Origin: Taxawa tesnikishii (nom. ined.)
Lineage: Eukaryota > Ascomycota > Dothideomycetes > Dothideales
NCBI GenBank assembly: GCA_030247885.1
Contig: JAPDRO010000014.1
Coordinates: 248,001 to 312,000, forward strand
Length of the DNA: 64,000 nt
Reading direction: 5' to 3'
Shown: positions 1-64,000 of the stretch, piece by piece
Layout of the letters: each line of letters starts with the position of its first letter
Position numbering within the stretch: the first letter of the stretch is position 1
Translations under genes and position numbers: made by a program
Notes under the pieces: generated by a model
What the model saw: the letters and a program-made list of their open reading frames with translations, nothing else
What the model was told of the DNA's origin: nothing
The model's database searches: none

Positions 1-695
1 CAACAACGGATGATGGCAGGGACGGTACCAAGGACAAGTAGACCGGGAGCTATGGCTGGCGTATGCAATGGCGATCTGTTGGCTTCTCCTAAACCGTACC
101 CAGTGTCGAGATTCAAGCTGCTAGCACGACCTGACGCAGCCGATCGCACCGAATGCACTGAACTGGCTCGTCCGTCCGACTTGTGTGATGAAGACCGCTC
201 CGTCATAGGGAAACCACCGAGGCCGCTGCTGCTCCTAGGTATGAAATCCACCGACGACCGAGAAGCATGAGCCCAATGGCCCTGGTTGGCGGACTCATCG
301 AATCGGACGCTGTTCGCACGAGAGGTCGCGCCTATCCGCCTCGGCTCCTCTTCAGCATCAAGGTGGAGGCTGCCGATAAGATTGCTCGAATCATCGTCGA
401 AGTTTTTGAATTGATCCTGTAGGGGTTTTGCAGGGGCGCTAAAATCGGACATGAGTTCAAGTGCAGCGTACAGAATCAGAAATACCCTACCCTGTTGTGG
501 TGTTCCACTCAGAACACTGGGAAATGGTGATGCGCCGCCCCATACGGACTTCATCCTGGCGTCGTCTTCTTGGCGTCGCTCGAGCCGAAGCAGTCTGTCT
601 GAGTGGTCCGACTGCACCTGTTGTAGGCGCAAGAGCTCGTTGTGTAAGCGCCAGGAGTCGCTTTGAGGTACGAAGGCAACACTTTGCGGGTCCAT
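1..695 (-). CDS. Conserved fungal protein of unknown function, N-terminal part (runs off left edge)
   Basis: Two exons are visible: 491-695 and 1-438, separated by a 52-nt GT-AG intron (439-490). The start is the ATG at 695 (MDPQSVAFVP). Residues 1-68 hold a charged, probably coiled-coil segment (RLHNELLRLQQVQ, RLLRLERRQEDDAR). Exon 2 is Ser-rich and disordered (SSSHKSDGRASSVHSVRS) and ends near PGLLVLGTVPAIIRC at the edge. I recognise this as a protein conserved in filamentous ascomycetes but cannot name a function. The frame slips by one base at the four-G run 422-425, just after the intron; both sides read as clean protein-like sequence, so an under-called base is the simplest explanation. 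It is divergent from ILV3. Confidence is high that this is a gene and low for its role. Confidence 0.7.
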   Translation of the reverse strand, partial: MDPQSVAFVPQSDSWRLHNELLRLQQVQSDHSDRLLRLERRQEDDARMKSVWGGASPFPSVLSGTPQQGRVFLILYAALELMSDFSAPAKPLQDQFKNFDDDSSNLIGSLHLDAEEEPRRIGATSRANSVRFDESANQGHWAHASRSSVDFIPRSSSGLGGFPMTERSSSHKSDGRASSVHSVRSAASGRASSLNLDTGYGLGEANRSPLHTPAIAPGLLVLGTVPAIIRC

Positions 696-1699
696 CGCAT
701 GCGGACCGCATCCGTTAGGACTCCCACGCTCCCTTGCAAGAGCCAGTCCGTTCTCGAGTGTTCGCGACACCTGCCAAATTGGCAATCTCCCCTCCGGGCC
801 TATAGCCTATTTCCCCTCTTCACCTCGAACGAGCCAACGTTATTTGCGGCGTCCGTACTCCCAGACACGAGTGCGTACTTTGTCCAATGCGAATAGTTAA
901 AGGCCGGGACAAAGACAAAGCCCTCAGGTGCAGCAACACGGTGGCCAAGACAACGATCGGAAGAAATCGAGTGTGGTCTTAGTGGAGGGGTCGCAGATGG
1001 AGAGACTGATTCAAGATCGGTATGTTGAAGAGGACTGATATTTCCTAATGGTGCAAGGAGGAAGAACGTCGTGTTTGGAAGATGTCCGGGTGGTGCGGTA
1101 GGCCCTCGATGGAGGTTTCGCAGACAATCAGGTAGTTTCGTAGCCTGTGGCAGGTAGTATTCAGTCTGGCAGTAAAAGGGCATTCGAAACCCACGAACGA
1201 TGACTGCATCAAAAGGACAGGGATCAACTGCGCTAACTCCGTCTGGCCGAAGTTCCGAAGCCGTTGTAAGCTGGAATGCACCACGCGTTACTCGAGTACT
1301 GGCCCTCACTCTTCAACGGGGCGACACGAACAGATGCCACCGGGCAAGTAAACCCCATCTGCAACAGCAACAAGGCGTCTGATTCGTCGTTCTATCCGTT
1401 GGTCCATACCGCCGGTTCTGCACGTCTCCTATACAGTTTGCTCGCGCAGCAACATGTAGGGTTGGTTATAGACGCGGTCTGGCGGCTGCTCTTCCGACGC
1501 GGTTAGCGTGCCCTTCTGAGCTAGGCGGCTAGGCCCCGCAATGACTCGCGTGGCGCGCAATGCACTTTTGTAATTACAGACAGTGCTTGGGCTCCGGTGT
1601 CGCCTCTCGCTGTGACTCCTTCCGTACGCCTTCTTCCCTCTTTCTCCTCCCTTCTTCTTCTCTCCCGCTACACGTCTTCTTGCTTGAGCGTGGGTCAGA
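696..1699. promoter_or_regulatory. Divergent intergenic region upstream of the left-edge gene and ILV3
   Basis: About 1 kb separates two divergent starts. The ILV3-proximal part (about 1620-1690) is strongly pyrimidine-rich on the plus strand, which is common just upstream of highly expressed ascomycete genes. A 169-codon minus-strand open frame (800-1309) crosses the middle, but it has no recognisable motif or compositional signal and is not called. No clear TATA box was seen. Confidence 0.4.
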
Positions 1700-3593: not shown

Positions 3594-4100
3594 TGGATGA
3601 AGTTGGCGGCGTAGTGTTGTCTGTATGCGTTGTATGTTACCGGTTTCTCGAGTTGCATTTGCACGGCGTGTGCGGTGTCTGGAGGTTCTCCCGTTTTGGG
3701 TTTGGATAGAGAATAGTCTATGTCCCTTGGGAAGACAAAAGTGAAAACGTACAGCGTTGTTCAATTCATTTTTTCCTGAATGATTGTCGTTGATGCTGTG
3801 GATTTTGTGAGTGGTAGAAGAGCTAGAACCCCGATTTGGGACCGACATTTCTTGGAGGAGAATTTTTTTACCCCTTGTTAAGCGGCGGAGTTGTTTTGGG
3901 CAGCACAAGATACGTCAAGCAAACCTCCCGCAGCAGTACTCCTACTACAATCACTGCACGTCGCTTGAGTACCATCGTTTCCTTCTATCGTCGCCCTCTT
4001 TCTCCCTCTGCCACATAATCTTCTCATCATATGCAACCAAAATACGTCTACAGTGGATTAATGCAACCCCACTCCTCGTCCTCTCTTTCAATCCCCTTTT
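3594..4100. other. Intergenic, between convergent genes
   Basis: This 507-bp stretch lies between the 3' ends of ILV3 and the FAD oxidoreductase and should carry both 3' UTRs. It contains a seven-T run near 3863 and T/C-rich sequence from 3960 to 4110. I see no gene in it. Confidence 0.6.
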
Positions 4101-5886
4101 TCAGTTCGGGAAGATGTTCGCCCATCCACCCTGCACGCACTGTCTGCTCGCAAACACCCTTCCCTGATGAATCCTGCACTGCGGATCATACTTTGCCTTG
4201 ACCTCGATAAGCCTCTCCACATTTTCGCCCCAAACCCTCCTGCCGCTCGCGTTGGGACTGATGTAGTTCGGATAGTCGGCCAGGAAGGGTCCTACGCTCT
4301 GTTGGTGCGAGTACGTCAGTGCGTTCAGCACGTCGTTCTCGGCTGATGTGACGGCATCGTCGGCCACTGAGGACCAGGCGGGGAGAAGAGCGTCTGATGC
4401 CCGGCAACGGAGTGGGGCCACGCGGTGGCTGAGTCGGAGGTGGGGAGGTGGCCGTTGAGGCCTGGAGACATGTACTGGAGAGCCCAGAGGGCGGATACGG
4501 GGTCTCGCCGCGTGCGAGCAGAGACGATACGTAGGAGGTGAGGGTTGCGCTCGCGTTGGCGAGGTAGGAGGCCGTTATTTCTGTGGTCTGGGGACCCCAG
4601 AAGCCGCGACGGAAGCCATAGGGGAACTATTGTTTAGGAAACAGGGTCAGTTTTGGGAGTGTTTGGTTGTTGGCAGAGTGGACTTACGAAGGTATCGATG
4701 ACCTGGAAGGCATCAGCGTAGGGAACCTGAATGGTGATGTTTTGCACGATGTCGAGGCCATGAAGCAAAGGCGTAAACGTCTTGTTGAAGGATGGTTGGG
4801 ATGGGTTATTGGGGTTTCCAAACCAGACACCAACGAGAAGTGTCTGTGTGCCTAGAGTTCCGTCGGCAAGGGGCACATAGCCCGTAGCGTAGTACATGAG
4901 GCTGAAAGGATCTGTGTGGTTGTTGAAGAAATCTACGGTGTTTTGACGGGCGACCGCGGTTGTGGAATTGGAAATGTACCACACACCAAAACGTGCGTCG
5001 GTGGGCTCGGCAGCGGCTTCCTGGTAGAAAGTCGTGACGATACCGAACTGACCTCCGCCGCCTTGTAGTGCCCAGAAGAGATCGGAGTACTTGTTCTTCG
5101 CGGTTGCCGTGACGATGCGGCCGTCCATCAGCACGACATCCATTGCGCGCAGTCTGTCGATGGCATACCCGTAGCTGAAGATGTTAGCTGGGAGTTCGTA
5201 TCACTCTTGTGGTGGTATGCTTACGCTCCGGCTAGGAACCCAATGCCACCGCCGGTGCTAAAACCGCCCGTGCCGACATTGCTCACCCTAGCACCAATGG
5301 GCGTATAACCAGTCCCATTGGTCGCTGTCTGCACCTGGCCCCCTGCAATGGTGAGTGCGTGTTCAGTTTGGGCAGTCGAGTAGGACTCACAGGTTGCTCC
5401 ACCTTGATAGCCTACAACAGTGTACGATTTGCCATCGATTACCTTGTTCTGCTCGATCGTCGTCTTGTTCATCCAGGTCAAATCAATGACCATGCCAGTC
5501 GAGCTGGACGCGTTGGTCTGACCATGTGCACCGCTCACGAAAGCAAGGTTGTTCCCCAAAGGAGTTTTGCATGACGCTTGTACAGCGTAGCTGACGTCTT
5601 GTGCTGTTACTGGGAAGATGACCACAGAGGCGTTCTTGCCGTATTGTGCGCCCTGAAAAAGAGATGAGTGGGTCGCCTTCCGAGATCCTGCGTGTTTTTA
5701 TCTCACCCAATAACGACCGGCATTGTATTGCTGGAGAGGTGATCCCAGGCAGGATATTGCTGCGCCGGAGGATAGCTTCGAAGCCAGCCATTTCAAACCC
5801 GTATCATGGTTCACGCAGTTGCCCTCTATGAGAGCAGAAGAGAAAGTGAGGAAGGAAAGAAACACCAACAGACCAGTTACCGCCAT
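4101..5886 (-). CDS. Secreted FAD-linked oxidoreductase, berberine-bridge-enzyme family
   Basis: Five exons are inferred: 5707-5886, 5391-5652, 5225-5342, 4688-5174 and 4101-4626, with introns of 48-61 nt. Phases agree throughout and give about 524 residues. The N terminus is a signal peptide (MAVTGLLVFLSFLTFSSA). An FAD-binding PCMH domain follows. It has the SGAHG motif, whose His would carry covalent FAD, then GGATW completed across intron 2, then GGGGQFGIVT. The berberine-like C-terminal segment ends YDPQCRIHQGRVF. The family oxidises diverse secondary metabolites or carbohydrates; the substrate is unknown. The last exon changes frame twice, at four-base runs 4499-4502 and 4380-4383. Family-like sequence continues in the new frame each time (PVSALWALQYMSPGLNG, then AWSSVADDAVTSAEND). 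Either the assembly under-calls these runs or this non-essential gene is decaying. Confidence 0.88.
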
Positions 5887-11414: not shown

Positions 11415-12203
11415 ATGGCTGACGCACAACCCCTCTCACCTGGGAGACATCGAACAACACCCGGCCCCAAGTCTTCCGCTCTCTGCCGCCCGAAGTCGTC
11501 ACATGCCTCGAAAATGCTCGATTCGTATGTTCCTCGTAACCAGTTGAGCACCACGCGAATTCGAGAAGCTAACATCTCTCCAGCTTCACCTCGCAACCTG
11601 CACAGCCCTTCAACCGCACGTCAGTCTGATGAACTATACCTACCTAGACGCCACCACTCCCAGCATCCCCTCCTCCCTCCCATCAGGGCCCGTGATAATT
11701 ATGACGACAAACCCTTCAAGCCGAAAGACGCTCAACCTCCTCGAGAACCCCAATGTTTCACTGCTCGTGCACGACTGGGTCTCTCACCGGCCGCCAAACC
11801 AGCGCTCCACCTCGCCCGACGGACGGCGGAATCCGGCTAGGAGCTCGCTGGCGAGCTTGTTGATGGGAATGAACACGGCGGCAATGAGTTCGATTTCTGC
11901 GACAATCAATGGGACCGCACAGGTACTGTCGCAGGGCAGTGAGGAGGAAAAATGGTGCAAGGCAAGACACCTGGAGAACAACACGTTCGATGACGGACAG
12001 GAGACAGCCTCGAATTGACACGAACGCCCACAGCAGACGGAGGACAGGGAGATGGAGGGCGCGGCACGTTTATTGAGGATGAAGAGGTCAGGGTTGTGTT
12101 GGTCAGAATACAGGAGGGACGGATTGCGGATTGGAAGGGTGGCGTGAAGGACTGGGTGCTCGCGACCGACCACTCTGGGGAGAGTCTGGTGAACGGCGTT
12201 TAA
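11415..12203 (+). CDS. Pyridoxamine 5'-phosphate oxidase-like FMN-binding protein
   Basis: This matches the fungal PNPOx-like split-barrel family (yeast YLR456W/YPR172W type), which probably binds FMN; its substrate is unknown. Exons are 11415-11524 and 11584-12203 with a 59-nt intron (GTATGT...CCAG), about 243 residues. Landmarks are RSLPPEVVTCLENARF before the intron, then HLATCTALQPHVSLMNYTYL, VSLLVHDWVS, and near the C terminus EGRIADWKGGVKDWV, all typical of the family. The frame moves by one base at two places: the four-C run 11430-11433, just after the ATG, and around 11994-11996 (GACGGACAGG). Between them and after them the reading is clean. As elsewhere in the window, under-called bases are likelier than decay. 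Confidence 0.8.
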
Positions 12204-15959: not shown

Positions 15960-17746
15960 CTAGATATCCAATTCGTTCAATCCGTCTCCTCTAGGGCCCT
16001 GATGTCTATACAACAGGCAGCCATCCTGGGTTCGTACATCAATACCCATGGCATCCGCAATCGCCTTGGCCTCGGCCTGCAATTTCTCGTAATCATTCGC
16101 CCATGACTCCGGGACCTCCGGGAACATGTTCCAGGAGCCCACCTTTGAGCCGTGGGAGTTGACTACCACGGATTTTTGCTCGTACGTTTCCTGATCCTTG
16201 GCCTGGAGGCTTTGCAGCAAATTCTCCCCGGCGAAAACCCAGCTGAGGAGGGCGTGGACCTGCCTAATGTGGTAACGCGGGCTGATGACGACGTCAGGTT
16301 CGAGGGGAAGGGGTGGTAAATTGTGGCGCTGCAGGGGCGGGATATGTTGTTGGATGTGGAGACGTATCGTTGCGCCCGAAGGCGCGCACGACTGACGTAG
16401 GCTGGGAGGTACCAATATTTGGCGGCGATGGTGAGCCATGCATCCGCTAATATCACACGCTCTTGTGGTGTCTTCGGCCAGGAAGCGAAGTGGTCCATGC
16501 TTGCTTGTGACGATGCATCTTGAATGATGCGAGGTTGGAGGGAGGTGGGGAGGTAACCCAAGATGCGGCTGAGGAGCGAAGAGCTGTTAGCTAATATCTC
16601 CGATGCGCCTGGGAGCTCCTCTGCTTTGCTATTCGGTTCTTCTGGAGACTTCGTCGGTTGAAGCGGCGGGCTCTCGGCGTAAAACATTCCCAGGTCGTAG
16701 GCGGCCTTGAAATGTCCAGACGCGGCTGCCTTGGTCACGTTGTACAGCCACCGGGATGTGTATTGTCTGCGCGCAGTGATGAAGTCCAGCTGTGCCTGGT
16801 AGTAATACGACTGCGGATCATCGAGATCCACACCTGTCTTGAATGCGTTGAACGCCTCCCTGAACTGGCGGCGCCTGAGGTAAAGGAGGCCTAATTCATT
16901 CCATGGGGAAGTGAGAGAGTCCAATGTTGCACTTTTGAGTACCTTTGTGGTCGCAAATGCCTCATCGCTTGCCTTCGCCATCTCCGTCGCACGCTCCAGG
17001 TATCTCGTTCCCTCCTCTTCGTCCCCCTATACATGGATAGCTTTGCTTGTACTACCAAGGCGCGAAGATCTTTCCCTTCTTTTACTAGCTTTTGCAACTG
17101 TTGGATCGCCTTGAGTACAGGTGCTGACCGAAGCGTACCGGCTGTGAGTAGGTCCTGGCGGAGAGCCCGGTCAACCAGTGAGAGAACAGAATTGGGGTCT
17201 CCAGTGGCAGCAGCTTCGTAGAGTATGTCGAATGCGCGCGCTTTGAGTTTGGATGAAGGGATATTTCGGAGAAAACGATAGGCAATATACATATCATTCG
17301 ATTGCGCCTCACCAGCTAGACGCGAGCATTGTCAGCACAGAAAGCAACTATGCGAAATGGGGCAGCAACTGACTCTCGACGGCCTGGCGGAATGCCTTGG
17401 TGTCTTCGCAGAGTTGCATGAAACGCTCCGGAGGAATAGAGATGAGTTTATCCCTTCTGAGTGTGTGGAGCCGGTCGCGATACAAAGTCAACTTGCTCAG
17501 GTAGCCTTCCAAACGCTTGCGTTCGTTCTGTTCGTCTATGAGATCCTCATCGTTGCGGCGCCGTCTTGCTCGGTTCTCCTTCAGCTGGGTGGAGGGAGCC
17601 CGCCATGGTACCCTCCTTTTCTTCGCATTGCTTGCGAAGCGCTTCTGCTGTGATGAGCGTAACCGGCTGCACGATGCGCAGGAGCTGGGGATGGTGGGCT
17701 CGAGGCTGGTGAGCAAATGAGCGGATGCCGAGAGACGATGGAGCAT
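15960..17746 (-). CDS. Mitochondrial TPR/Sel1-like repeat protein, function unknown
   Basis: Exons are 17374-17746 and 15960-17315, with a 58-nt intron (GTCAGT...CTAG), about 576 residues. The start at 17746 gives a Ser/Leu/Arg-rich presequence (MLHRLSASAHLLTSLEP, then QQKRFASNAKKRR), so import into mitochondria is likely. The body holds helical-repeat signatures: SPWNELGLLYLRRRQFREAF, then ASGHFKAAYDLGMFYAES, as in TPR or Sel1 repeats. I cannot assign a pathway. The frame moves by one base at the five-C run 17023-17027 (YRG to DEEEGTRYLERATEMA) and at the four-G run 16334-16337 (NNISRP to LQRHNLPPLPLEPD). Sequence is protein-like on both sides of each. Confidence 0.78.
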
Positions 17747-19835: not shown

Positions 19836-22800
19836 ATGGATGATTCGTTTCGCAAAGGTGCAGAGATGCTCGCTTGGATTAACAATCTGCTCGCTCGGAA
19901 GGGCGATTCACAACAAGGGACCCCTCAACTAGAGCAGACTTCGCCTCAGCAGCCACACGAACCGACCGGAACAATGAACACTAAGATGGACTCCGAGAAG
20001 ACATCGGGCAAGCCGGAAGAGCAACAGCCCCCGACTCTAGCTGGTCCTGGCTCAACCCAACCGAGCCACAAGCGAGCAGCAACAGTCACGAGTCCATCGG
20101 CGAGCAGGGAAGCTTCGAAACGCATTCGGATAGAGAAACTGCTTGAAGCACAGAATAGCAGTATTGGGGGAAGGCCGGAGCAGAAAAGGCTGTTGAACCG
20201 CCGAGGGAACAGGAAATCGACTCATCTGATGAGGATAGCGCATCCGATGCTGGGTTCACTATCCAATCGCGAAGATTGACAGCCAAGAGCAGCACCACCA
20301 CCACCGCTTCTCCCAGCATACCATTTCCCGGATCTACCAAGCAGCAACTTAAGCCAGCGCGTCCCACAGCGAAACCATTGTCAAATCCTCTTCCAAGAAA
20401 GTCTAATACCCCGAGCAAGAACACAAGCACCAGGACGGCCAGCGAGAAGGAGTCTCCCGGTGTCGAAAGACAGAAGATCTACGAGCAGCTCAAGGCCACC
20501 GGCGGCAAAGTTCCCACCGCCCAAGAAAAAGAAGCCTTCATCCAGGATTTCATGCGCATGAAAAACGCGCAAAGGGATGCCCAAAAAGAAGCTCGAAAGA
20601 AAAGACCGCAACACCGTCAAAGGACTTGCCAAACCCCGCCACAACGGTGGCCCTGGTCTCTAACCAAACTGAAGATACGAATACCGTTATCATCCAGCCA
20701 GAACAGCTCGCCTCCCATCGCGACCGCAAAGCAGCCACAGCAACCACCTCACTCACCGCCAAATCCTCATCATACGTGCCTATAGTGCGCAGCACCAAAT
20801 CCAAACCATTCATCGAGGACAGCTCCGATGACGAGACCGCAACCGCCAAGCCTGCCGCAACCGCAAAGGCTCCTCAAGTCTCTGTCAAGGAAGAAGAGAA
20901 ACATAACCATGGGGCCCCGGATCCACTCTTACCTGGCGTCGATCCTTTTTAGACTCGGGCGCAGCATCTGAGGACTTCAAGCCGCAGATCGCTGCGCGTG
21001 TCCGCAACGGAGAGAAACAGTTCCGTCCCGTGTTGACAGCTTTCGAAGCCAGTAAGAATGCGGCCACGGTGAATAAGGAGGTTGAGGAGCCCGGTGTGAA
21101 GCACGAAGTGAAGGCCGACGTCGAGATGGAAGATGCAGAATCCATGCCTGACGGGATGTCAGATATGCCTGGTGGCGATGTAGAGAGAAGCGTCGCCTCC
21201 AGCGGACCGGGCGATGTGGGGCCAGAGACGTGGTGCTCTGCAGACGACAAGATTGGAACGGTCAGCTCTCTTCCAGATCTCTACAGTCACGAAGATCATC
21301 CAGCCCAAAGCCAGAACCGTGGTTCCCAGCAGCAGCGAGACGAAGGGGCGTTGACTCCAAGAAAGATCATCAGCATAGAAACCATCCCATTTCCGACTGC
21401 GCGGGTGACGAATATGGTGTCGCGGCAGCCTGCTCCGGTGGCGGAAGGTGAAAACCAGCAGAGAGCGCACGTAGCAAACATGAGCAGTACTCAGCAGCCT
21501 TCTATCTCGGCAACGAATTCAGTGCTACCACAGTCCACACTGATGACAGGCAACGAGACACAGCAGAGAATGTCTGTGGCAGACACGATACCTCTGGTAA
21601 AGGGCGAAGTGGACTTCGTCGATGACAGCGCTTATGGCACCCTGTCGGATGGCTCTCGAGTAAACTCATCTATAGAGGGGATAGAACATGCTGATGTGGA
21701 GTTCCCCGGCCTGTTTGTCTCTCCGGTTCCCGAAGAAAGGGCACAAACTAGGGAGGTTGACGAGGACGACGATGATGATGACGAGAATGAAACCGATGAT
21801 GGAACGGAAGATGAGGATGACTCGGACGAGGAAGGCGACAGCGACGAAGACCCCGACAGAGAACCGGACGAAGCTGAGAGCTCCCAGGTTCATCGGCAGG
21901 AGCTCCGTGCACAACGTTTGGAAAGACTGACATGGCACAAGATTACCGCCGGCAAGACCATTGTCCCTTTTCCGGACTACCGAACAGCGACGTACAATCC
22001 CAGTGCTAGCTCACAGATGACCCAGCCACCTGCGGGCCAGACCCGAGGGTTGCACTTGCCAGGATGGCGCCAGGATAGGGAGGAAAGATTGGGACCGAAT
22101 GCGGCAATACAGACTGCTGGTCCGGCAGCATTTCGACGCAATCTGAGCCCCAGGCGTGCCCTATCCCAGGTACAAGATGTCGGGCAGGATGCAAGAAAGC
22201 GAGGCGTAACCACTTCTGGGGAAGTGTCGGCGGCGGATGTTTCACACAACCATCAGCGTTCGGACGGTCACCCAACCGTGGGCGGCAAGACAATATCTCC
22301 CGCTCTCATGACGCAGTTGCTGAACCATATCCGCTCCACAGGGTCCGACGAAGAAAAGGAAGCCAATGCGGATGAGGAGGAAACGGAAGACTTAGAGCCG
22401 TACATGGAACCCGCACACTACCTCTCAAAATCAGACACCAGCTGCTTCATCTATCAAGTGCACCTACAGCAGTGGGATGAACCCTCAGAGCTGGACGAGG
22501 ACCGCGAGACGGTGATCTGCGGTCGCTACTGGAGCCTCTCAGACGCGAACGCCGCGGCCTGCGAGGAGCTCGCCCGCCCTCTCGGATCGTCCTCTGCACT
22601 CAGCTCTCCGCGCGGCAGCACCTCGTGGGATGAAGACAAGCACGGCATGAAGACGTTCACTTTCGAGTCCAGTAGCGGCCACGTGGTCAAGACCTGGGTG
22701 ACGCGGTACGTGCACGTTTTACGCCCGCGGGACGGAGTGGAGAAACGGGAGGTGCTGTGCATGCCGAAGAGGGTGTTCGAAGTATGGCAAAGGACGACCG

Positions 22801-23114
22801 TTGTGAGCGGAGAGGAGGGAAAACGGCAGAAGACTGTAACGGAGGAGAGGCTTGGAAGTCAATGGTATGCGACAATGGATCTGGCAAACAAGGCGGCTGG
22901 ACAGCGCATGGTGGAGTTGCTGGGCAAGCCCGACAGTCGCCGGATGGACGACATTGAGAAAACGGTGGAGGTGAGGCAGGAGGTGAATCGGACGCTTGAC
23001 AAGTTCAAACAGAACGGCGAACCCTTGAGCGTGGAGGTGGAACTGGACGGAGGGGCGCGTACGGTCGACGTTGAGGTGAAGGAAGTTGAGATTACGGGAC
23101 CTCGGAATCTCTAA
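19836..23114 (+). CDS. Large, mostly disordered nuclear-type protein of unknown function
   Basis: One gene of about 1,093 residues is read in successive frames, starting at the ATG at 19836 (MDDSFRKGAEMLAWINNLLA). It contains Ser/Thr/Lys-rich disorder with basic stretches (SHKRAATVTSPS, KRIRIEK). A short helical motif (KIYEQLKATGGKVPTAQEKE) and an acidic tract (EDDDDDDENETDDGTEDEDD, around residue 640) follow. A folded-looking C-terminal region of about 220 residues begins CFIYQVHLQQWDEPSE and ends EVEITGPRNL. The frame moves by one base at the five-G run 20166-20170, the five-A run 20583-20587 and the five-T run 20946-20950 (or the G run near 20911). Composition stays coherent across all three. 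No family was recognised; a nuclear location is inferred from the basic and acidic stretches. Confidence 0.75.
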
Positions 23115-34362: not shown

Positions 34363-35300
<938 letters not shown>

Positions 35301-39743: not shown

Positions 39744-41367
39744 TCACACCTCTGAAGCACCCGCACCACGTCCCCTGCTTCTTCCTCTCCCGCCTTTTCC
39801 ACCTCTACCTCTTCCACCGTTGCTCCTCGCCCTTCCTCCCCTTCCTCTTGCTCGCGAACTTCCTCTTCCTCTGCCGCGTCCTCGTCCAGACGCCTGTGGC
39901 TTGGCCACTTCACTTCCCTGCTCACCTTGTCCGGTCGTCGCATTCGCCTGCATTGCCGCCGGGACATCGTTCACCGTGGATATCGCAGTTGGAGCTGCGC
40001 CAGCTTGTGCATGTGTGGAGTTGCCTGCGGATGCCGCCTGAGGCGCGTTGCTTGGTGAGGCGGAGACGCCCGGTATTGGTGTGAGACGTCCTGCGCGCGC
40101 TCCAGCCTGCTGGCGTTGGCGTGTGAATAAGTCGGCCGCTATGATGGAGCCGGTGGAAGTGGGGGCTTGCTGGGCGTTTGGCGTGGTGATCCCGCCGGCG
40201 GCTGGCATGGCGGCGGGCTCGTCCGTCACAGGTGCTGCGTTGCCTTGTAATGCGGAGATCTCCTTGCCTGTCGGCGGATCTGGATCTAGGGGTCCCAGCA
40301 GGTGCGAGAGGTCTTCGCCACGGGTGGAGTTGGTTTTGTCGCCCGTTTGAACCGGCCTTCGTCGTCGATGTAGGCTTCACGCAAGTTCAGCAAGTCGAGA
40401 GGTCCGGAATCGAAGAAAGGGTCGCCGTATTCATCCAGCGGTTCCGTGCTTGGATCGACGTTCATAGCCAGTTGGTGCTCTTCACGCATCGTGTTGGAGC
40501 GCTGTAGAATTTTTCCTAAGACGGGTCAGTCAGCGAGTACAAACCCTTGCACGACCGGGAGACTGTTGATGATAATGGATTAGGAAAAGAACTTACGTGC
40601 CAGATCAGCACACCGCCTTCACGATTCATGCCCTTGATATACCGCTTCATCTCCTCAAGATCGGCATCGTTCATGAGGTCGAAATAGCCCTCGTTTGCGA
40701 CGTTCTTCAGGATCTTCTGATATTGCCATTTGCCGTCGGCGGTGGTGTAACCATAGGGGCGTCTGTCTTCAGTGGAGGACTGGTAGGACGCCGTGCCGGG
40801 CTTGAGTATACCCTCCTGGAAGCGCCACCAATCCATACTCATTTCCGGAAAGTACTTTTCCACGCTGTCCACGTTTCCATTCAAGTAGATTGAGTTGACG
40901 ACGGTAACCCTAAAGGTCGGCGGAGGTGGGTTATACTTCTTCTGCCAGAGTATGTTGAGCGTGCCAATCTTCTGGTCCAGCATCATGGTCGCTAGCTTCG
41001 CGGTCGAAGGTCCCTCGGGATATTCTGAGAGTTGCCTGTCCATGAACACATTTGCGCGACGCTGGAGACCTTCGTTTCCGAACAACAGGGCCAGAACATC
41101 TGGAGGGTTCTTTTGGCGTGCCATATGAATGAGCGGAGTCATCTGGTCCAGCTCTTTACTCAGGTCGACCGGAGGAAGGCGGAAGGCGCTTTTGTTGCGC
41201 AAGCTCTCATCCCAAGATGCGACAGCCTCGGCGATTTCGTCTTCTGTTGGGAAGGAGTCTGTGAAGGCCTGACCGGTGTCGAAAAGCTTTCTGGTGAACA
41301 AGGTCAGCACTTCTTTCACATCGGGAGCTGCCTCTTCGAAGATGTCTAGGAGGTGCTGCATTGTCAT
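39744..41367 (-). CDS. Unknown conserved-looking protein with RGG-rich C terminus
   Basis: Exons are 40597-41367 and 39744-40515, separated by an 81-nt intron (GTAAGT...TTAG), about 514 residues. The N-terminal 257 residues look globular (MTMQHLLDIFEEAAPDVKEV; ELDQMTPLIHMARQKNPP; KIGTLNILWQKKYNPPPP). The middle is acidic, then Ala/Pro/Thr-rich. The last 50 residues are Arg-Gly repeats (SGRGRGRGRGSSRARGRGG), an RNA-binding or methylation-type tail. The frame moves by one base at the five-T run 40510-40514, directly after the acceptor, and at the three-G run 40322-40324; both sides are coherent. I do not recognise the N-terminal family. RNA binding is inferred only from the RGG tail. Confidence 0.75.
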
Positions 41368-45771: not shown

Positions 45772-48700
45772 ATGCTTGCCAACCAAGACTCTCGCCTCTT
45801 GCCGGAGCCTGTCATTCGCGAGGCTGCGAGGAAAGGTGTTGATGTGCTTCTTCAGGATATAACTAGCCCCTCTGTAAAGTAAGGATCATGAAGCTGCACG
45901 ACATGATGGTCTGTAGACTTTTCGTATCTGTTCTCGCTCTTGAACATCTGCGGAACTAACTGTTCTGCAGTGACTATCGGAACCTGCTAGACTCTGCTAT
46001 CCTGACAGTAAACTGTGCTGAGGTGACCGCCTCCCATAGAGCGGCTGCTGTCAACCTGCTGTGCGCCGCCATACAGAAATGTGTGGCATCACCCGAACAG
46101 GGGGTTCGCTCCCTCATCTGGGAAGATGGGGTTTGGATGCGTTGCTTCGAAGTTTTCCTCATGCAGCACAACAGCGCAAAACCTAAGTTTATGAGGCAAC
46201 TCCTGGTCACACTGGCAGCCATCCTTTCCAGAACAGAGCAAGCAGACGTAAGACATGGCATCCATGATCGGCTGTTGGAGAGGCTTCTCCGTTTATTGCT
46301 GGATCCTACCGGCCACTCACCCGTCAAACCTGCCATGCAAGCGTTGACGCATTTTCTCGCCAAAGACATCTTACCTTTCAGTGCATTGCAAAGCACGTTC
46401 TGTGGCCTCAAAGACGCTGAAGACCATAGATCCGGTTCCTCATCGCTGGAAGAAATTCTGAACATGTTGTTACACTGGGCCGTGTTCGAAGATCTTGCCC
46501 CTACCGTTGGACAATTACTGCCAGTGTTGCTCGACAAAGCCCAACAAGACGATTTGGCCAGATCCGGAGAGCGTCATGAGCAGGGCGCAAGCTCCTCTCC
46601 CGTTGCGCCTTGGATTCGACCTGTACTTGCACAGATATCTGGGAAACCCGAGTTACTGGAGTGTTTCCGTTACTACATATTCCCAAGTATCTTCAAGCGT
46701 GGACTCAGGGACTTTTGTTGTTTTCTTGGATATCTGGGTCTTGACCAGACCTTTGGGACCGCGAAGGAGAAAGCAATGCAACCGAGCCCGGCACCTCCGA
46801 TGCTCACAGAAGATGTCCTTTTCTGCGCTCTTTCCGTTGGGAAAGAAGCAGGCCTCGTTCTTGAAGTGGACGGTCGACAGCATAAGACTCTCCACATGTC
46901 TGATACCACATTGTATCTACCTGATACTTTGCTTGGCAAGCTTCTGTCGCAAAAGTCTGCAAATGCTAGACTTTCCGGTTTATCTCTACTGATCTCATCG
47001 ACCTCCGCCATTAAACCGTTAACGCCAGGCTCTCTTCGTGTTCTTAAGCAGCACTTGCCTCACCTACACGCAGAAACCGATGCTGGTTTCCGAAGCGAGC
47101 TGTTCACTATGACCAAGCGTCTTATAGAGCGACTTCGAGCAGCGACCGCGACATTAGCGAAGCACAACAAGCGCGCCAACGCTTCGGATATAGCGGCAGA
47201 GCTCAATCTACACAGGTCTTTTGTATCGTGGTACCTCAGTTTCTTGCGAATGGAGCTCAGACCTACCGCGAGCTACCAGCGTCACATCTCATCTCTCAAG
47301 TGCTTGACCATAGTCCTAAGATCCGGCCTAGATCCCTTTGTATCAGAAACACATTATTCCAAATCAGCTGGCGGAGAGATACGATGGCCTTTTCAGATCT
47401 CAGTAGCGGATCCAGGCACCGTTCAAACATTGATCGGCTTGCTTCTGGACCCGTTTGATGATGTCCGGCTCACATCGGCTGGCGTCCTGAAGATAGTCAA
47501 CAGTAGTACGGCATCGTTTGATGGTTCAACCCAAACAGCTGCCACAGACTACCAGCCCATGCTCAGAGCTTTGACTAGGGCAGAGCGCTCCATGATGACC
47601 TCTGGCAGAGCAGATCACGCCGATGGAGTAGCGCATGTTTATGCAATCCTGTTTCAGCGTTCATCCATGGAAACACAGTCTGACAAAGAGTGGTGGTTCT
47701 CCAAGACGAAGGTACTGGATCATCTCGTCACGAAGATTGAGAACACCACACGCATTGCAAGTGATGATCTCCTCACTGCAGTCAACGGCAATCCGCTACA
47801 TGGCTTGTTCTCAAGCGTTCGGTGGGTTCTCACAACTCGCTACCCAACTTGAATGCTAAAGTGTGTGAAGGTATATCCTCGAGCAACCTGGCTTCTACTC
47901 AGTAGTTGCGGCGGACAAGTCGAACTCGGTAGTCTGGCAGAGTCTACACCGTCGTCTATATCAATCTTTGCGGAACGTTTGGTCCTGCGTACATCCAATC
48001 CTCTGCAATGATGCACCAGAGGGATATACCCCGGATGAATTAGACGAGGAAGCCGATATCACCACTAAGGATGTCCTGAGTTATTGCTGGAGGGCTCTAA
48101 GAGAAGCAAGGTAAATACCAGAACCGAGGATGAGTACATTTATTAATTGGCTTAGCCTTCTTCTGCGCACTCTTGTAATGAGATGTCCTTTGGAAAGCAA
48201 TGATTCCGCGCTCATGACGGCTGATCAATTGCGAGAACTTGGTAATCTATGCTTTACTGAGTTGGCCGAACTGCGCCATCGTGGTGCCTTTTCCACCGTT
48301 GCGCAGACATTCGTGGCCTGCTGCAGCGTGTGTCGGAATGTTGAACAGTCTTCAGATGGCATTCTTAGTGACTGGTACAACGTAAGTGTACAAAGGTCCT
48401 GTGTATGCGTCCCCTTCTAACGCATCATTCAGCGGACGCTGCTATGCATCCAGAACAGAGCCACAATCAACACACGTCGTTCAGCAGGTATACCTTCTCT
48501 GATTACCGGAATACTCGCAGCCGAGGTAGCAGACGGACTGTTGTTTGGCAAGGCAATAACAGACCTTTCAAGCGAAGCTCGGAAGCCGGTTGTGGCTGGG
48601 TCCGACGAGGGCAGCGGTCTTCCACAGGTTCATGCCTTGAATTGTCTGAAAGACATCTTCAAGAACTCGAAGCTCGGCGAGCGCTCTCAGATCCATGTAG

Positions 48701-51013
48701 CTCCAGCACTCGATCTTGCAGCGGACTGCTTGTCATCTGATGTGTGAGTTGTTGTCGTACCCGTTCAGTAAGAGCTGAGTTAACGGACGTAGCTGGGCTG
48801 TCCGCAATTGCGGCTTGATGCTCTTCCGAGCTCTCATAGACCGCTTGCTAGGTACCAACGATGCTTATGACGAAGACGACGCACCGACACAAGCAGCCCT
48901 TTCCCATCTCGAGATTCCAAACCTCATGAATGTCATCATTCGGCTTCTCTCCCCAGAAATTTCAGCACACGGGCTTCAAGCATCCTCGAAAGGAACCGAA
49001 GCCGTATTCCCTGCGTTGCAATTGCTGCAGCGAGCGATGCCTCCAGCGGATCGTCTGCCCGAAGTGATGAAAGCGGTACTGCAGCTTACAGAGAGTCCAC
49101 AGTGGCATGTCAGAGACAAGGCTGCACGCACATATGCTTTGCTTGCTCAATTTAGGGAGCCACCAAGAGAAATTGAGAGATCGTTGGTACCGACATCGAG
49201 CAGCCAGAACTCTCTTCACGGTTCTTTGCTCTGTGCTAAGTACATTTTCCAGAAAGCTAGGAAGCATTTGACGGGGCAAGGCAAGTGTCATTCGCTTGGC
49301 TCTGGAACGTACTTTAACAGGTCATAGAACTACAAAGGATCGACGAGGTAATTCAAGAGGCAGCTCCATCCATGTTCCAAAGCAACGATTGCCCCTTCAC
49401 TAGGGCTGCTTTCGTCGAGCTAGACACAATGATTGCACAAGCGGCACTTCAACTGGGAATCGACCAAGGTAGGCTCAGGTGAAAAGCGGGTATGAGAAAG
49501 ACACGGCTAATTGCTGCAGCCCACAAAGTGGTCTACTGGGCTGAACTGGAGAATGGTGCCGTGAGCGGTCGTTTCGCAGAGCAGTCCGCCCTGCGACAGT
49601 CCCTGGCCCGCGCCACAATGCATTACCAAGGTTTCACACTCTCCCGTAATCCGCAGGCCGGTTACGCTTTCCGGCACCTGCTGCACCTGGCAATGCATGA
49701 TCCGGATGCCTGCATCGCAGGGCTTCGTGAGGCAGTTGCACTAATAAAGTCGTCGCCGCAATGGCGTGATTGGTCCGGCAGACAGTTGACCAAAATCTGT
49801 TTCAATCTTCTGCACGACCCGGAAGTCGACTTCGAGGTGAAGTCCGCCGCGCAGACTGTGCTGCTCGCCTTGCTTGATGTCGGTGACCCTGGCTTAACTG
49901 CTGCGACTCTTTTCCGCAACGAAGACAAGTTGCCGCAGACATGCGCCAGTGAGCCCCCACTCTATACCGAAGGAGCTCTGCAACTGGAAGGCGCATTCTT
50001 TGAGGCTAGATTGGGCGCCTCGACGGGATTGAGTCCAGTTCCGGAACTAATTCCTCGACTCCTCTCATGGATCTACAGGTTTACCAAGTCGCTGGATTAC
50101 GACAATGTGAGTGTTCACCGTACTAGTGAAGCTCGTCACGATGCTGATCCTCTCTTAGCCGCTTGACGCACGGATTGCTGCGGCTCAGGCTGTAAGGCAG
50201 TTAGATTCTAGCCTGTCCGCCTTAATAACTATGCCCGAACTGGCAGAATGCTTGCTGCGATTCTGCGTTGCCGTATACGACCTGACCGTGGATGACGACG
50301 ACGATGTTCGGAACATTGGAGCAAACGTAGCGTGTCGCGTTCTCTCCGCTGCTGGTATGCACACTGGAGGCAACGACATGGTGCCCTTGTTAGCTGGCGT
50401 ACGTCTTGCGGAATATATGGCCAAACGATTCCGAAAATGGGAGGGTCTAGCCCAGATCGCTCTGTCAAGACTAGTGGACAACAGTAACAATGATGGAAAT
50501 GTCACATCGGTTGAGGATCTCCTAGCAAAGGCGCGCAAACAAGATACCGCGCTCTTCATCCAGGAGAAACAGAACTTGTTCATCGATGAGGCTAGAGAAG
50601 CGAGGCTCTGGTCCAACGTGCTCCTCGCTCTCTCTGTCAAGGCAGTGTCTTCCCTTGCCGCAAGCAGTTTGACGGAGTGGACACTTGCCGGACTCGACGT
50701 ACTTAGGACCGCAGTTGAAGAAGAAGCGGACGGAGCGCTCGGGTGGACAAGGGATGCTGAAGTCTTCAAGATTGGCTTGCAAGTCATATACGCAGCGGAA
50801 GTCCTGATCTTACTGCGGGAGAAGACAAAGAAGGTTACTGTCGCTGGCTCGCAGATCAAGTTGAAGCTGTTGGGATTGCTGGAAGTAGGCCGGAAGAGTG
50901 AGATGAATATGCTTTGGCAGGAACAGATCGAGAAGGTGTTGGAGCGGGCAGTGATTAGGAGGTTGCGCAGGTTGGATGGTGCTCTGATGATGGCGTCATC
51001 GCGGATACAGTAG
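45772..51013 (+). CDS. TRM732: Trm732/THADA-type HEAT-repeat protein (tRNA 2'-O-methylation partner)
   Basis: Nine exons: 45772-45878, 45971-47821, 47871-48110, 48156-48381, 48433-48743, 48793-49284, 49321-49468, 49520-50106 and 50159-51013. The total is about 1,605 residues. The DUF2428 core includes RRSAGIPSLITGILAAE, then WAVRNCGLMLFRALIDRLLG completed across an intron. It continues as an all-helical HEAT array to VRNIGANVACRVLS and the end. Yeast Trm732 partners Trm7 for 2'-O-methylation of residue 32 in tRNA. The start at 45772 (MLANQDSRLLPEPVIREAAR) gives a shorter N terminus than some relatives, so an upstream exon is possible. Exon 6 needs one extra base at the four-G run 49273-49276 to read LTGARQ into VIELQRIDEV. 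That intron would be just 36 nt, which is unusual. Confidence 0.9.
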
Positions 51014-53460: not shown

Positions 53461-55342
53461 TTATCCCTTTACGCTATCCGTACTCCCCTCCTCCCCTTCG
53501 TCGTCGTTGTCGTCGTCGTCGACCTCCTCCTCCTCCTCCTCCTCCTCCTCCTCACCGCCACTACTCTCCGCGTACTCGCCCGTCTTCCCCAGGCGTTGCC
53601 AGGCCCTGTCACTCCTTTCAACACTGCGCGCCTCTCTCTCACTCCTCGCCTTCGCCTCCCTCCGCGTCTCCTTAACCAGCGTCTTTTTCTCCGCCCTCAG
53701 CCGTTCCATTTGCTCGAAACTCGCCCGCTGCACCCGGCGCAGCGCATCCAGCTCCTCGCGCAGCTGCGCATTCTGCTGTTCCAAGAGCAAGGTGGGTGTT
53801 GGGGACGAGGAACGCGGATCCAGAGCCATGAAATCCTCACTTTCTTCGGACGGGAAGGAGGGAAGGGGCCCGCTGCGACGGGGATGGGTGTTGTTGGAAG
53901 TGATGCTGGGTCCGACGCCGACGCCGACGCCGACGCCTGCGGTGAGGCTGCTGAGTTCATGCAGGCCGGCCTTTAGAAGAGAAGAGGGGAACACGGGGTG
54001 TGTGAGCGCGGATTCAAAGTCGAGGTGTCCTGCAGGAGCTGCGAAGAGCGGTTCCGAGGCGGAGAACGAGGGTAAGGGAAGTGTGGTGAGGGACTGTGTG
54101 GTTATGTTGTAAGCGCCAGGAACCAGGCCGTCCGTGCCGGCATCGAAGGCACCGAAGCGCGGTTTGGAGATTGCGTGGTGTTTTAGCGTTGGAGGTGTAG
54201 AAGAAAGGAGGCCTGAGACGGGCTGATAAACAATGTTGGTCACGGGCCCCGGAAGTGGTATTGAGGTCAGGTCGGAGGAGTAGCGTCCGGTACCTACATC
54301 CCATTGCAGGATTCTCCCGGATGAATGGCCGGTTAGAAGGGTGGTGCCGTCATAGCTGATGCTCATGCTCTGTGTCGATCCGACGTCTATCGGGGAGGCT
54401 TCCAGCGTGTCGCAGCGGGCGGCTGCACTGGTTTGTATGCTTGCGCCTCGTCGTGCAGTGCGCTTTGAATCGACTGTCCTTCGACAGGGGCGAAGCTCGC
54501 GCCGTAAAAGTCCAACATCTGTATGCTGCCGTCTTCGTAGCCAGTATAGAAAGCCCGATCGGCTGGATCGATGGTCAGACATTGCGGTATAGAGGGTAGC
54601 AGAATTGTCCGAAGAGCGTTTCCGGAGTGGTAGTCCCACACTATACACGTGCTATCTCGACTTGCAGATATTGCTATGTTGCAGAAGCTCGAGCTGTGGC
54701 CAAGCACCAAGGTGATAACTCCACCACGGTGCATCGAGAGCGTGTGCAAAGGCACATGTTGCGAAGGCTGGCCAGAGGTGTAGGTTGAGGAGAACGAGAG
54801 TAGCGAAGGAAGTGACCATACATGGACGTACGAGTCTTCTGAGCCCGAAAGAAGGAAGTTGGACGTTGGATCCACACCCAGCGTTGTTACGGGCTGTAGA
54901 TGTGCCTGCGATGTAGTGATTTGGCGACCAGTGCATACCTTTACAGGCGTTTTAGTAAAGACGTCGCGCGCAAGCAGAATTTGCTTCGGTATCAACGCAC
55001 CTCCCACAAGAATATCCTGCCCGTATCCGTTCCCAGAATAAGAACTGTATCCTCACAAGCCAGCGCAATGCATCTTACTCTTTCTGGAAAGGGCACGACA
55101 GCCTCCTGGTTCCCCTTGTCCCTGCTGTAAACATGCACAACGGCCTTTTCTGCCTGCGCGGCAAATATGTGCGATGCGCTCACGGCAAGACAGTTTTGCG
55201 GCGTTGCGCTCTTCTTGAAGAGAGCGCGCTGGGCGGTGTGAGGCTGGGCCTCGTAGACGAATACGGCGGCATCTTTGGCGACGTGCGTGTTCGTTGTCGT
55301 GTTTGGGGTGGATATGGAGGCGACGAAGTGCTCTTGGAGCAT
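53461..55342 (-). CDS. IPI3: Pre-rRNA-processing WD40 protein Ipi3 (WDR18)
   Basis: Exons are 55001-55342 and 53461-54938, with a 62-nt intron (GTGCGT...AAAG), about 606 residues. WD40 repeats begin near residue 30. They include FLWEVCTGRQITTSQAHLQP across the intron, SNFLLSGSEDSYVHVWSLPS, ISASRDSTCIVWDYHSG and ISYDGTTLLTGHSSGRILQW. The C terminus is a long coiled coil (QNAQLREELDALRRVQRASF) ending in a poly-Glu/Asp tail. Ipi3 works with Rix1, Ipi1 and Rea1 in 60S ribosomal subunit maturation and in pre-replicative complexes. The frame moves by one base at the three-G run 54417-54419 (KPVQPP to RCDTLEASPIDVG). GVGVGVGVG near 53911-53938 is a GCC/GAC triplet expansion. The start at 55342 (MLQEHFVASIS) fits the family. 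Confidence 0.92.
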
Positions 55343-59778: not shown

Positions 59779-60481
59779 GCATACGACGGCATCGAACGCC
59801 TGATGATGAAGTCTACAGCATGAGGAGGCTCGCAACCCTTCGCCTTCCCACACCAAAGTCGCTCAGGGAAACCCTAGATGGCGCCATGGCGCACAAAGTT
59901 ACTCTCGCCCAGATCTTGAGGTGACAGAGACCAACAAGGCTTTAAACGCATTGGTGGAAGCACGTTCTCAATCCCACCAGTATGGATCGCATTGACATGC
60001 GCCAGCGGAAGGAAGACGGTGCGAGCAGGACGCGAACGGGAAGAGATCGACAAGATGTCTGTAAAGGTTCCCATAGAGAAGGCAACGGGTGGTGAAGAGT
60101 ATAGGGGAGGGATGATAAGGTTGATCATGGCGTTGGCGGAAGTCAAGCTTTCGGATGGCGTGGATCCCGGCGTCATTCCGAAGCTCAAGAAAGGCCCTGC
60201 CGCGGAGGAGATTCCCACCAACATTATCTCATTGCTCTGCGAATGCGACAGGGTACGATTGCTGAACGGTCCTTTGCCCGATTTTGCCCGGCAAGAGGTT
60301 ATTATGACTTCAGCGGTTCCAATTTGGTTGTTTTTGTACAAATATTATGTATGCCATGACCGAAGCTCCATTGTTCTTGCATTTCGCCTCGCCTCCCTAC
60401 CATTGCTGATTTTGTCCTGTATTGTCCTTTTTCTCTTTTCGAGACCAACAGACGTTGCGTGCTTCGTCAATCGGTCACAGC
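59779..60481. other. Intergenic, 0.7 kb, with open frames on both strands
   Basis: A 155-codon minus-strand frame (59874-60341) and a 174-codon plus-strand frame (59992-60516) overlap. Neither has recognised motifs. The minus-strand frame reads rather protein-like but has no visible neighbours or introns, so it is left uncalled. The last 150 bp are T/C-rich, typical of a promoter for the carrier gene. Confidence 0.4.
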
Positions 60482-61935
60482 ATGAGACGCAGGGACGAAT
60501 ACTCCAGCCACAGTAGTGATGATACTGCGGTCCAGCCTTCCGATGTCGAAAAGGCACAACCACAATCGCAACCACGATCACAACCACAATGCAGGAAAGC
60601 TCGCGGGCTCTCGCCAGAGGGGACAGATCGCAAGGTCACTCTCAAAGAGCGTATCGTACAGTAGGTGTATTTCGCCTCATCTCACTCTGCTTAACGTCCT
60701 TCCATCTAAACTGGCGCTGCATTGGAACATCCTGACCTGCGTACCACCTATTTGCGCTTCTGTAGCGCTAATACAGAGGTTTGTATAGTTTTACATGGGC
60801 CTGGTTTACTCTTACCATGTCGACGGGGGCTTCGCTCTCCTCCTGGACGTGACACCGAATCGCTTCCCGGGCCTGACAACTATCGGCAAGGTCGTCTACA
60901 TCTTCGACCTCGTGCTCTTCGTCCTCCTCTGCGCCGCCATCACGACCCGCTTCATATTCAAACCAGGCGCTCTCCCCGCTCTCTTAAACACCCCCAGGAA
61001 TCCCTCTTCTTCGGTACCTTTTGGTTGTCAATGCCCACCATCATCGCAGGCATGAACAACTACGGCGTCTCGACCATCGGCGCAGGGGGCGAATGGCTGG
61101 TTGTGACGATACGAGTGCTGTTCTGGATATACGTCGCCTGCACGCTGCTCGTCGCGCTGTTCCAGTACTGGTACCTCTTCACGGCCAAGGAAATGACCAT
61201 TCACAGTATGATGCCTTCGTGGATCCTTCCGATATTCCCACAGATGTTGAGCGGCACTGTCGCGTCTGTCATCGCCAGCAATCAGCCCCCGGCTCAACGC
61301 TTGCCCATCATCGTCGCCGGCGTCACCTGTCAGGGTCTCGGCATGATGGTGAGTTTCATGCTGTATGGCATCTACATCGGCCGTTTGATGCAGGACGGAC
61401 TGCCTGCGCCGAGCATGCGGCCGGGTATGTTCATCGCAGTCGGCCCACCAGCGTTCACAGCGTTGGCTCTTATCGGAATGAGCAACGCCCTACCGCAGGG
61501 TTACGGGTACTTTGCCGCGCATCCGATGGCGGTTGATGTGTTACAGCCATTAGCGTTGTGGGTCGCAATCTTCCTCTGGGCTCTGGCCTTTTGGTTCTTC
61601 AGCATCGCGGTGGTCAGCCTCTTGCAGGGTATCAAGGAAATGTCGTTCAGTCTGGTCCTGTAAGTGCCTGATATCGTACCGTGCTTTGGCAGTCTCGAGC
61701 TGATCTCTGGCGGACAAGCTGGGCATGTGTTTTTCCGAACATTGGTTTCACGATCTCGACGATTGTTATTGGTGAACAGTTGCAGAGTAACGGTATACGA
61801 TGGGTAGGGACGGCGATGACCCTCCTCATCGCTGCAACGTGGCTCCTCGTCATTTCGCTGCATGCGAAAGCACTTTTGACGAAGCGTATCATGATGCCTG
61901 GAATTGATGAAGACAAGGGAGAGGAGAACGAGTAG
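60482..61935 (+). CDS. C4-dicarboxylate/malate carrier, Mae1 (TDT/SLAC1) family
   Basis: Exons are 60482-60660, 60789-61659 and 61719-61935, giving about 422 residues in phase. A hydrophilic Gln/Ser-rich N-terminus leads to KERIVH|FTWAWFTLTMSTGG across the first intron, a hallmark of TDT transporters. About ten helices follow, with FWLSMPTIIAGMNNYGV, PMAVDVLQPLALWVAIFLWA and, after the last intron, WACVFPNIGFTISTIVIGEQ. S. pombe Mae1 takes up malate and related acids at the plasma membrane; sulfite exporters belong to the same family. The frame moves by one base at the five-G run 60825-60829 (MSTG to GFALLLDVTPNR) and the five-C run 60991-60995 (LLNTP to QESLFFGTFW). The exact substrate is unknown. 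Confidence 0.9.
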
Positions 61936-63230
61936 CCCGTCTGAGAAGATTTCGATACTGAGGCCATGGCATGGATACGGCCTACAGTCTCTGGCATGGA
62001 AGGTTTTCCTAGTACTTCGAACCCGCAACAGCTGGACAAGGTCGACACTTCGCCACGTAACCAAGTGTGTGTAGTGCTTCCAAACACTGTGCACCACTGG
62101 CACTGTTCCTGGTTCAAATTCTTCCTAGGTGAGAGCTTGATCGCCTCGAGCCTTCGGAATCAGGAGTGTCGCCCCCGAGTAGATGGCTGTTGAGTAGATG
62201 AGCCAGACCCAGAGCGTGCAAACGGACTTTTACGACATTCGACCAGGAGCAACTGAAAGCTTAGGACTCCGTTCGCTTCGGCTTCCTATTCGCGCTCCTC
62301 TAAAGTCATGTGTCACGATTGTACTGATCAGACGGACAGTCTGGATTCCGTGAGTAATACTAAACCAGGCGAGTAGGCTCTAAAGGACAAGTAGCTAAAT
62401 CTAAATCGTACGAACGTCTGCCCCGAAAAGGGTGATATCTGCATCTTGGGAACCATCTTGAAACCATGAAAAGGTCGCTATGTGATTGAGGCTGGCCCTA
62501 TGGGACGTCGAAGTACAAGGAAGCTGTTCCTAATGGCCGCGGATGCGCTTGGAGAAACTCCGAACACAGAACGATACGAACTTTACGAGTCACGTGAGAT
62601 CTGCAGCATGCACTGTTGGAACACATTCAGAATGGATACGAGTTATGCACAGATGGCCAGTTCTGTTGCATCTGCGTTCCGATACAGATTATGCGCAAAG
62701 GGCTGCAACATAGCACACGAGCATGGACGCGTTCAACGACGCGTCACGCGTGTTTGGCCCCCGCCCCGCACCCGCGCCTTTCCTCCTCTGTCTCCATCTC
62801 TGGTTTTGCCTTGCAATCCTTTTTCCATCCTCATCATCAAGTACCAACACTGCTGCCCTTCCAATGCCTGTCTTGCAATGGGTCGACCAAACCAAATCAT
62901 AAAATTGGAGAGATATAGGCGGCAATGTATTTCTTGGCAAGCCTCCGAGTCAGGATTGGCGCTCGGTCCCGCATCGCTGCCTATACCAAACCCCTTTCAC
63001 TTGGTTACATCTCACGTTGGATGATCATGTAGGCTTCCATGCGGCAAGCCCTCACTGCATGCTGCAAAGATGTGCTGACGAGGGGAATATAAGTACGCCC
63101 ATTACTCCGTCTTCTCCTCTTCTTCTCCCATCACGCCCCGCCAACTCTTTGTCTTGTCACTGCTGCACATAATCGTCAATCACCAGTTCAGAACGTTTGC
63201 ACTCCTCCACCCTTTATTCTGTATAGAACC
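61936..63230. other. Intergenic, 1.3 kb
   Basis: No gene was recognised; a 180-codon plus-strand frame (62482-63024) lacks motifs. The region includes the 3' UTR of the carrier. C/T-rich sequence from 62760 to 62900 and a TATAAG at 63089-63094, about 140 bp upstream of the next ATG, suggest the promoter of the right-edge gene. Confidence 0.5.
63089..63094 (+). promoter_or_regulatory. TATA-like element of the right-edge gene
   Basis: TATAAG is followed by a C/T-rich stretch (63105-63150) before the ATG at 63231. This layout is common in ascomycete promoters. Confidence 0.45.
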
Positions 63231-64000
63231 ATGTCTTCTCAAGTTGAAAGTGTTAGCCCAATCGCTCTTCCTCCGCTTCCTGCCGAGCACGCTGAGTGGA
63301 TTCGGTATGTGGATTCGCATCCGGACAAATCCATGCACGATTTGCTCGCTCCCTACAAAGAGTACGATTCCAGACTCAGGGAAATATTCGCTCAACAACC
63401 CGACCACCCTGCAATTGCGAGACCCAACGTGGTTCCTCTCTTCGCAGGAAGCCAACAAGATGTCAAGATCCGAGCGCGCAACCTGTCTGCCGAATCAGAA
63501 GAAGAGCGCCAGCGCTATCTGATGCCGCTCAACAAGGCTGATCGCAAGCCCAATGGAGCCCCGGCTGTTGTCCAATCCCTACAAGAATTCCAGACGAACT
63601 TCCAGCTGTTTTCCGAATCCTCTCTTGTCGACATGGACTGGTCTAACGTCGTTGTCGCCGGCAGTGCTGTTGTCACTTCCCTACTTCCCGTCCCGCCTGC
63701 ATACAACACTTCCAAGCGCGCTCTCCGAGAGTATTACCACCAGAAATTCGCACCGGCATCCGATGTTGACCTCTTTCTCTATAACATGACCGAAGAACAA
63801 GCCGTGGAAAAGATCAAGCAGATCGAACAACGCATCAGGGATTCGATATTGACTGAAACGACGACCGTCCGTACCAAAAACGCCATCACGATTGCCTCCC
63901 AGTATCCCACGAGGCATGTCCAGATTGTGCTCCGCATCTATCGATCTATATCAGAGATCCTTACAGGATTTGATGTCGATTGTAGTTGTGCCGCCTTCGA
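63231..64000 (+). CDS. Large conserved fungal protein, N-terminal part (runs off right edge)
   Basis: An uninterrupted frame runs from the ATG at 63231 (MSSQVESVSPIALPPLPAEH) to the window end, 256 residues with no intron. The opening 140 residues look helical (EHAEWIRYVDSHPDKSMHDL). Then comes WSNVVVAGSAVVTSLLPVP, and later KRALREYYHQKFAPASDVDL. A helical stretch (EEQAVEKIKQIEQRIRDSIL) follows, then ITIASQYPTRHVQIVLRIYR and GFDVDCSCAAF. I remember this N-terminal region from long fungal proteins often annotated for ankyrin repeats farther on; those repeats would lie outside the window. The GS...DVDLFLY arrangement recalls a nucleotidyltransferase fold. Coding status is certain from length and composition; the role is unknown. 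Confidence 0.85.
   Translation, partial: MSSQVESVSPIALPPLPAEHAEWIRYVDSHPDKSMHDLLAPYKEYDSRLREIFAQQPDHPAIARPNVVPLFAGSQQDVKIRARNLSAESEEERQRYLMPLNKADRKPNGAPAVVQSLQEFQTNFQLFSESSLVDMDWSNVVVAGSAVVTSLLPVPPAYNTSKRALREYYHQKFAPASDVDLFLYNMTEEQAVEKIKQIEQRIRDSILTETTTVRTKNAITIASQYPTRHVQIVLRIYRSISEILTGFDVDCSCAAF

Follow-up and report, generated by a model that had tools for sequence, protein, structure and literature searches.

The shortening of homopolymers in assembled genomes is already well known and, as an artefact, is of low biological interest. In the nanopore-only assembly of yeast prior to polishing, the available part of the source (PMC5466710) records 128,050 deletions, of which 79,152 fall in homopolymers, against 7,735 insertions, and 429 genes free of indels. 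Homopolymer frameshifts in conserved genes are likewise described, in the available part of PMC7500977, for long-read-only assemblies of the fungus Drechmeria coniospora. Errors can also lean toward insertions when R9 reads from nanopore are used, or after later polishing, according to the same portions of the two sources (PMC5466710, PMC7500977).

The window analyzed here, that is, the whole stretch of 64,000 nucleotides of Taxawa tesnikishii, is held in an assembly of 29,367,862 bases (29.37 Mb) in 34 contigs. Its frame changes are very probably assembly errors, produced by residual one-base shortening of homopolymers in a long-read assembly. As far as the available text of PMC5466710 permits the comparison, the yeast assembly is alike in that one-base deletions, concentrated in homopolymers, break the frames of genes (most of them, in the yeast) and deletions far outnumber insertions, a pattern that is known here from the assembled letters alone. 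The density of slips is far lower than in the yeast assembly before polishing, and the present assembly has therefore probably been partly polished. Drechmeria coniospora, within the available account (PMC7500977), offers a parallel in the form of another filamentous fungus with a highly contiguous assembly and homopolymer frameshifts in conserved genes; the two differ in that polishing added more insertions there, whereas missing-base slips predominate here.

The window encodes fungal domains (SLATT_fungal and Fung_rhodopsin) and contains short GT-AG introns, which together identify the DNA as fungal, probably from a filamentous ascomycete. ARAGORN found no tRNA genes in it. A search of three pieces of unnamed genes against the PDB returned no useful relative, with a single weak match to a repeat protein, and eight pieces searched against NCBIfam gave nothing useful beyond one weak match.

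The earlier note on this DNA had attributed one missing base to each of 19 runs of identical bases and to a GG pair, and all 20 were found where it had placed them. Each was submitted to a three-frame coding test, in which 150 bases on either side were scored on both strands, with the gene strand being picked by eye afterwards, from the open frames. A clear frame change, one base short and flanked on either side by DNA that scored positive for coding, was present at eight of the 20 sites (marked as clear in Table 1), and three others (11430, 17023, and 31448) were weak, albeit in the right direction. The sites at 4380 and 4499 share a net shift of two between their flanking pieces, which is not separable into two sites. 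Five (15437, 42047, 49273, 52070, and 60825) are situated at the ends of genes or in DNA with a weak coding signal, where a change of frame is unreadable, while the frame is unchanged at 422, and 40510 falls within a canonical intron. The earlier observation is confirmed in part. The runs at the listed sites are 2–5 bases long, in some cases just 2–3, and all four letters occur among them. At 1576 control positions in the coding DNA of the window and 16 other loci, selected at more than 170 bases from the slips and introns called by the frame model, which biases the control toward no change, the same test returned no change at 1544, 15 missing-base changes, and 17 extra-base changes. The assembled letters carry slips at eight of the 20 listed sites, or perhaps 13, if the weak sites and the net two-base change are included, and the list is looser than it was presented to be, given that it includes some introns and some untestable or unsupported places.

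Table 1. Coordinates of the frame slips, introns, and related features, given in window positions unless an assembly locus is stated.
Feature	Position	Strand	Evidence or remark
Window	G000:C6:248001-312000
Berberine-bridge-type gene, two listed sites	4380..4502	-	Net two-base frame change only
Weak slip	11430..11433	+	Right direction according to the open frames; both coding scores negative
Clear slip at a GG pair, adjoining the PNPOx_N-like piece 11548-12015	11995..11996	+	Three-frame test
Clear slip, unnamed gene (pieces between 15963 and 17026)	16334..16337	-	Three-frame test
Slip or GT-AG intron 17027-17085	17023..17027	-	Three-frame test, frame model, intron scan
Gene with three slips	19836-23114	+	Frame model span
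First clear slip of this gene, G run	20166..20170	+	Three-frame test; model slip at 20166
Second clear slip of this gene, A run	20583..20587	+	Three-frame test; model slip at 20601
Third clear slip of this gene, T run	20946..20950	+	Three-frame test; model slip at 20948
Weak slip upstream of the CBM21-domain gene	31448..31451	+	Scores -1.6 and 0.4
Clear slip, unnamed gene (pieces between 39747 and 41373)	40322..40324	-	Three-frame test; model slip at 40346
Canonical intron containing 40510-40514	40502..40596	-	Good donor, branch-like, and acceptor sequence; model intron
Probable slip zone in TRM732, additional to the listed sites	47768..47850	+	Inferred from frame change
Candidate GT-AG introns, TRM732	48111-48155, 48382-48432, 48744-48792	+	Intron scan, DUF2428 order, C-terminal domain
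Clear slip, IPI3 orthologue	54417..54419	-	phmmer of separate pieces, three-frame test, model slip at 54412
Clear slip, SLAC1-type transporter	60991..60995	+	Pfam PF03595, three-frame test
Sampled locus L010	G000:C5:500001-510000		26% G+C; the other 15 sampled loci 40-56%

In some genes of the window, homology continues across the change of frame. For the IPI3 orthologue, phmmer matched the piece upstream to positions 112–253 of the solved IPI3 chain 8ptw_CT and the piece downstream to positions 274–340. The frames of the two pieces are offset by one missing base, and the slip must fall, from the limits of these matches, in the interval from about 54494 to 54402. In the SLAC1-type transporter, the piece 60789-61052 covers positions 14–75 of the PF03595 profile, and the piece 60710-61660 covers positions 60–280 in another frame, although the frame model missed this slip. 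These are the two window genes in which homology crosses a slip, and the figure of at least 12 conserved genes that had been said to be affected is not demonstrated. Of the two orthologues put forward previously as conserved genes, TRM732 is a weak example at its listed site, 49273, which is located past the last matched domain position (about 49243).

The structure of the TRM732 orthologue can be followed further upstream. The DUF2428 domain runs in order across three pieces in the same frame, with the C-terminal domain in a fourth, and the candidate introns between these domain pieces, of which 48111-48155 has a low score (5.7) in the intron scan, mean that no slip is needed over 48111..48792. 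The frame does change between the piece 45960-47849 and the piece 47768-47902, and an 80-base candidate intron (47861-47940) lies directly ahead of the DUF2428 match. Together, these features make it probable that the gene carries an extra slip at 47768-47850 in addition to this putative intron.

The other window sites are less fully anchored by homology. No Pfam family was found for the gene with three slips, and its span, of 3279 bases, is already a multiple of three, which contradicts the assertion that the coding lengths become so only after one base is added per site. The slip called by the model for the site at 16334 is at 16293, 41 bases off, and the upstream coding score is negative at 17023. 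At 11995, which the frame model missed, Pfam matches one side only, with the next piece (11994-12200) having no match, and the CBM_21 match (Pfam) is in the piece 31431-32888, on one side only of the listed site at 31448. In the berberine-bridge-type gene (4101-5886, minus strand), the BBE match is C-terminal, in 4104-4574, and here, at 4394, the model calls a slip that belongs to the other class. A good candidate intron (4627-4687) connects the piece lying upstream, and the upstream pieces that were searched had no Pfam match.

Beyond individual sites, a frame model that allowed for introns and for slips in both directions, and was supplied with no information on runs, was applied to the window and to a further 16 loci of 10 kb each (224 kb in total). 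Long open frames, drawn from the window and from 15 of these loci, served to train its coding part, and some shadow frames stayed among them; its splice-site weights were preset, untrained values, and it was used with shorter introns, an earlier version having over-used long ones. The locus L010 was kept out of the training and included in the slip and run counts. With the strictest prior, the model called 25 missing-base and four extra-base slips (binomial p = 1e-4), that is, 29 slips in about 100 kb of modelled coding DNA. This disproportion is 19:1 in the 16 loci (p = 4e-5) and 6:3 in the window, and at least one missing-base slip was called in 11 of the 16 loci. Under two looser priors, the overall counts were 33:9 and 34:11, and those of the window, 7:5 and 8:6.

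The missing-base slips also cluster near the runs. A run of four or more bases was present within 15 bases of 17 of the 25, in comparison with 22.3% of random coding positions (p = 1.4e-6), and within 8 bases of 12 of the 25, in comparison with 13.7%; the remaining eight had no such run inside 15 bases. Among the four extra-base slips, one had a run of this size inside 15 bases. The opposite-class slips called by the model at 8332 and 17553 may each correspond to two missing bases or to gene borders.

When the model was trained on Escherichia coli K-12 and applied to 150 kb of this genome, with introns off, it called 45 slips, 24 missing-base and 21 extra-base (38 and 32 at a looser prior), which indicates that it has no strong one-way bias. 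All 45 are no more than 50 bases away from the annotated end of a gene, which means that the model jumps between neighbouring genes, producing false slips at their borders. Part of the 29 fungal slips could be false jumps of this type, and some window genes were merged by the model, such as the rhodopsin-type and SLAC1-type genes.

Conserved families on other contigs carry slips in the same direction. Searches of the whole assembly for the TCP1/CCT, HSP70, and actin families returned 24, 20, and 23 matches, respectively, and these 67 matches form 36 neighbouring pairs within 400 bases. An intron could fit in 31 of these pairs, which are therefore uninformative, and the other five abut or overlap. 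One of these five zero-gap pairs stays in frame; the frame changes in the other four (one of the TCP1 type, one of the HSP70 type, and two of the actin type), each time in the missing-base direction. Three of these four junctions have a run of four or more bases, while at the fourth, the matches overlap by 73 bases, so that the slip is not placeable on a run.

Long runs are also scarce in the sampled DNA. In the 224 kb, where the longest run is of nine bases, there are five G/C runs of six or more, against 31.8 expected under a second-order Markov null (ratio 0.16), and 35 A/T runs of this length, against 58.6 (ratio 0.60), whereas the same ratios in E. coli K-12 are 0.75 and 0.94, respectively. 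Given that A/T runs of seven or more are also few in E. coli (ratio 0.33), natural causes could explain some of the deficit in A/T runs. The modelled non-coding fungal DNA contains 32 A/T and four G/C runs of six or more, and the depletion of long runs, which is strong for G/C and moderate for A/T, extends over both the coding and the non-coding DNA.

One alternative, which is compatible with assembly error and may account for some of the listed slips, albeit with less than even likelihood, is that they represent normal short introns, the ends of genes, or frames that were misread, with no base missing. This is consistent with the location of 40510 in an intron, the intact frame at 422, the intron alternative available at 17023, and the fit of the breaks in TRM732 from 48111 to 48792 to three GT-AG introns. 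It leaves the eight clear sites unexplained, however, together with the zero-gap changes in the TCP1, HSP70, and actin families and the one-sided count of the model. Assembly error would account for these observations, and the under-calling of homopolymers that had been proposed as the cause is upheld by the one-way slips near the runs, the scarcity of long runs, and the slips in conserved families elsewhere.

The explanations in which the short runs are real fare far worse. That the genes are pseudogenes, decaying in this strain, is highly improbable; the broken frames themselves, and nothing else, speak for it, while the slips are mostly one-sided, and decay was rejected on the basis of the like slips found in conserved chaperone- and actin-family genes elsewhere, in agreement with the prior judgment that genuine decay was implausible. 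Programmed -1 ribosomal frameshifting, or transcriptional slippage at the homopolymers, is even less probable. A -1 slip would indeed compensate for the eight clear slips, given their direction, and 17 of the 25 missing-base slips of the model are near runs, but slippage normally requires either a longer run or a heptamer accompanied by a stimulator, and the listed runs are of 2–5 bases, in all four letters. The restoration of frames by such a process at short runs throughout the genome, including members of the chaperonin, HSP70, and actin families, is scarcely credible. Neither gene decay nor translational frameshifting would predict the scarcity of runs outside the genes, which counts against both, and frameshifting, for which this scarcity would need a separate cause, was rejected mainly for this reason.

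Under the preferred explanation of assembly error, the loss would have arisen during base-calling or in the consensus, rather than in the organism, and the contiguity of the assembly, together with the type of error, points to nanopore as the platform. A long-read assembly, most likely nanopore, prepared without adequate short-read polishing, would retain a residual rate of homopolymer runs that lose one base, genome-wide, and each shortened run inside an exon would shift the reading frame in one way. For the users of this assembly, automated gene models will hold false introns, splits, and truncations, as anticipated in the earlier note, and counts of pseudogenes or lost genes are untrustworthy prior to polishing.

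The locus of low G+C content (L010) represents a further observation on the runs. It contains eight A/T runs of six or more, against 21.8 expected under a first-order null (none of 200 simulations as low) and 12.9 under the second-order null (16 of 200 simulations as low). AT-rich islands of this type may represent RIP-altered or centromeric DNA.
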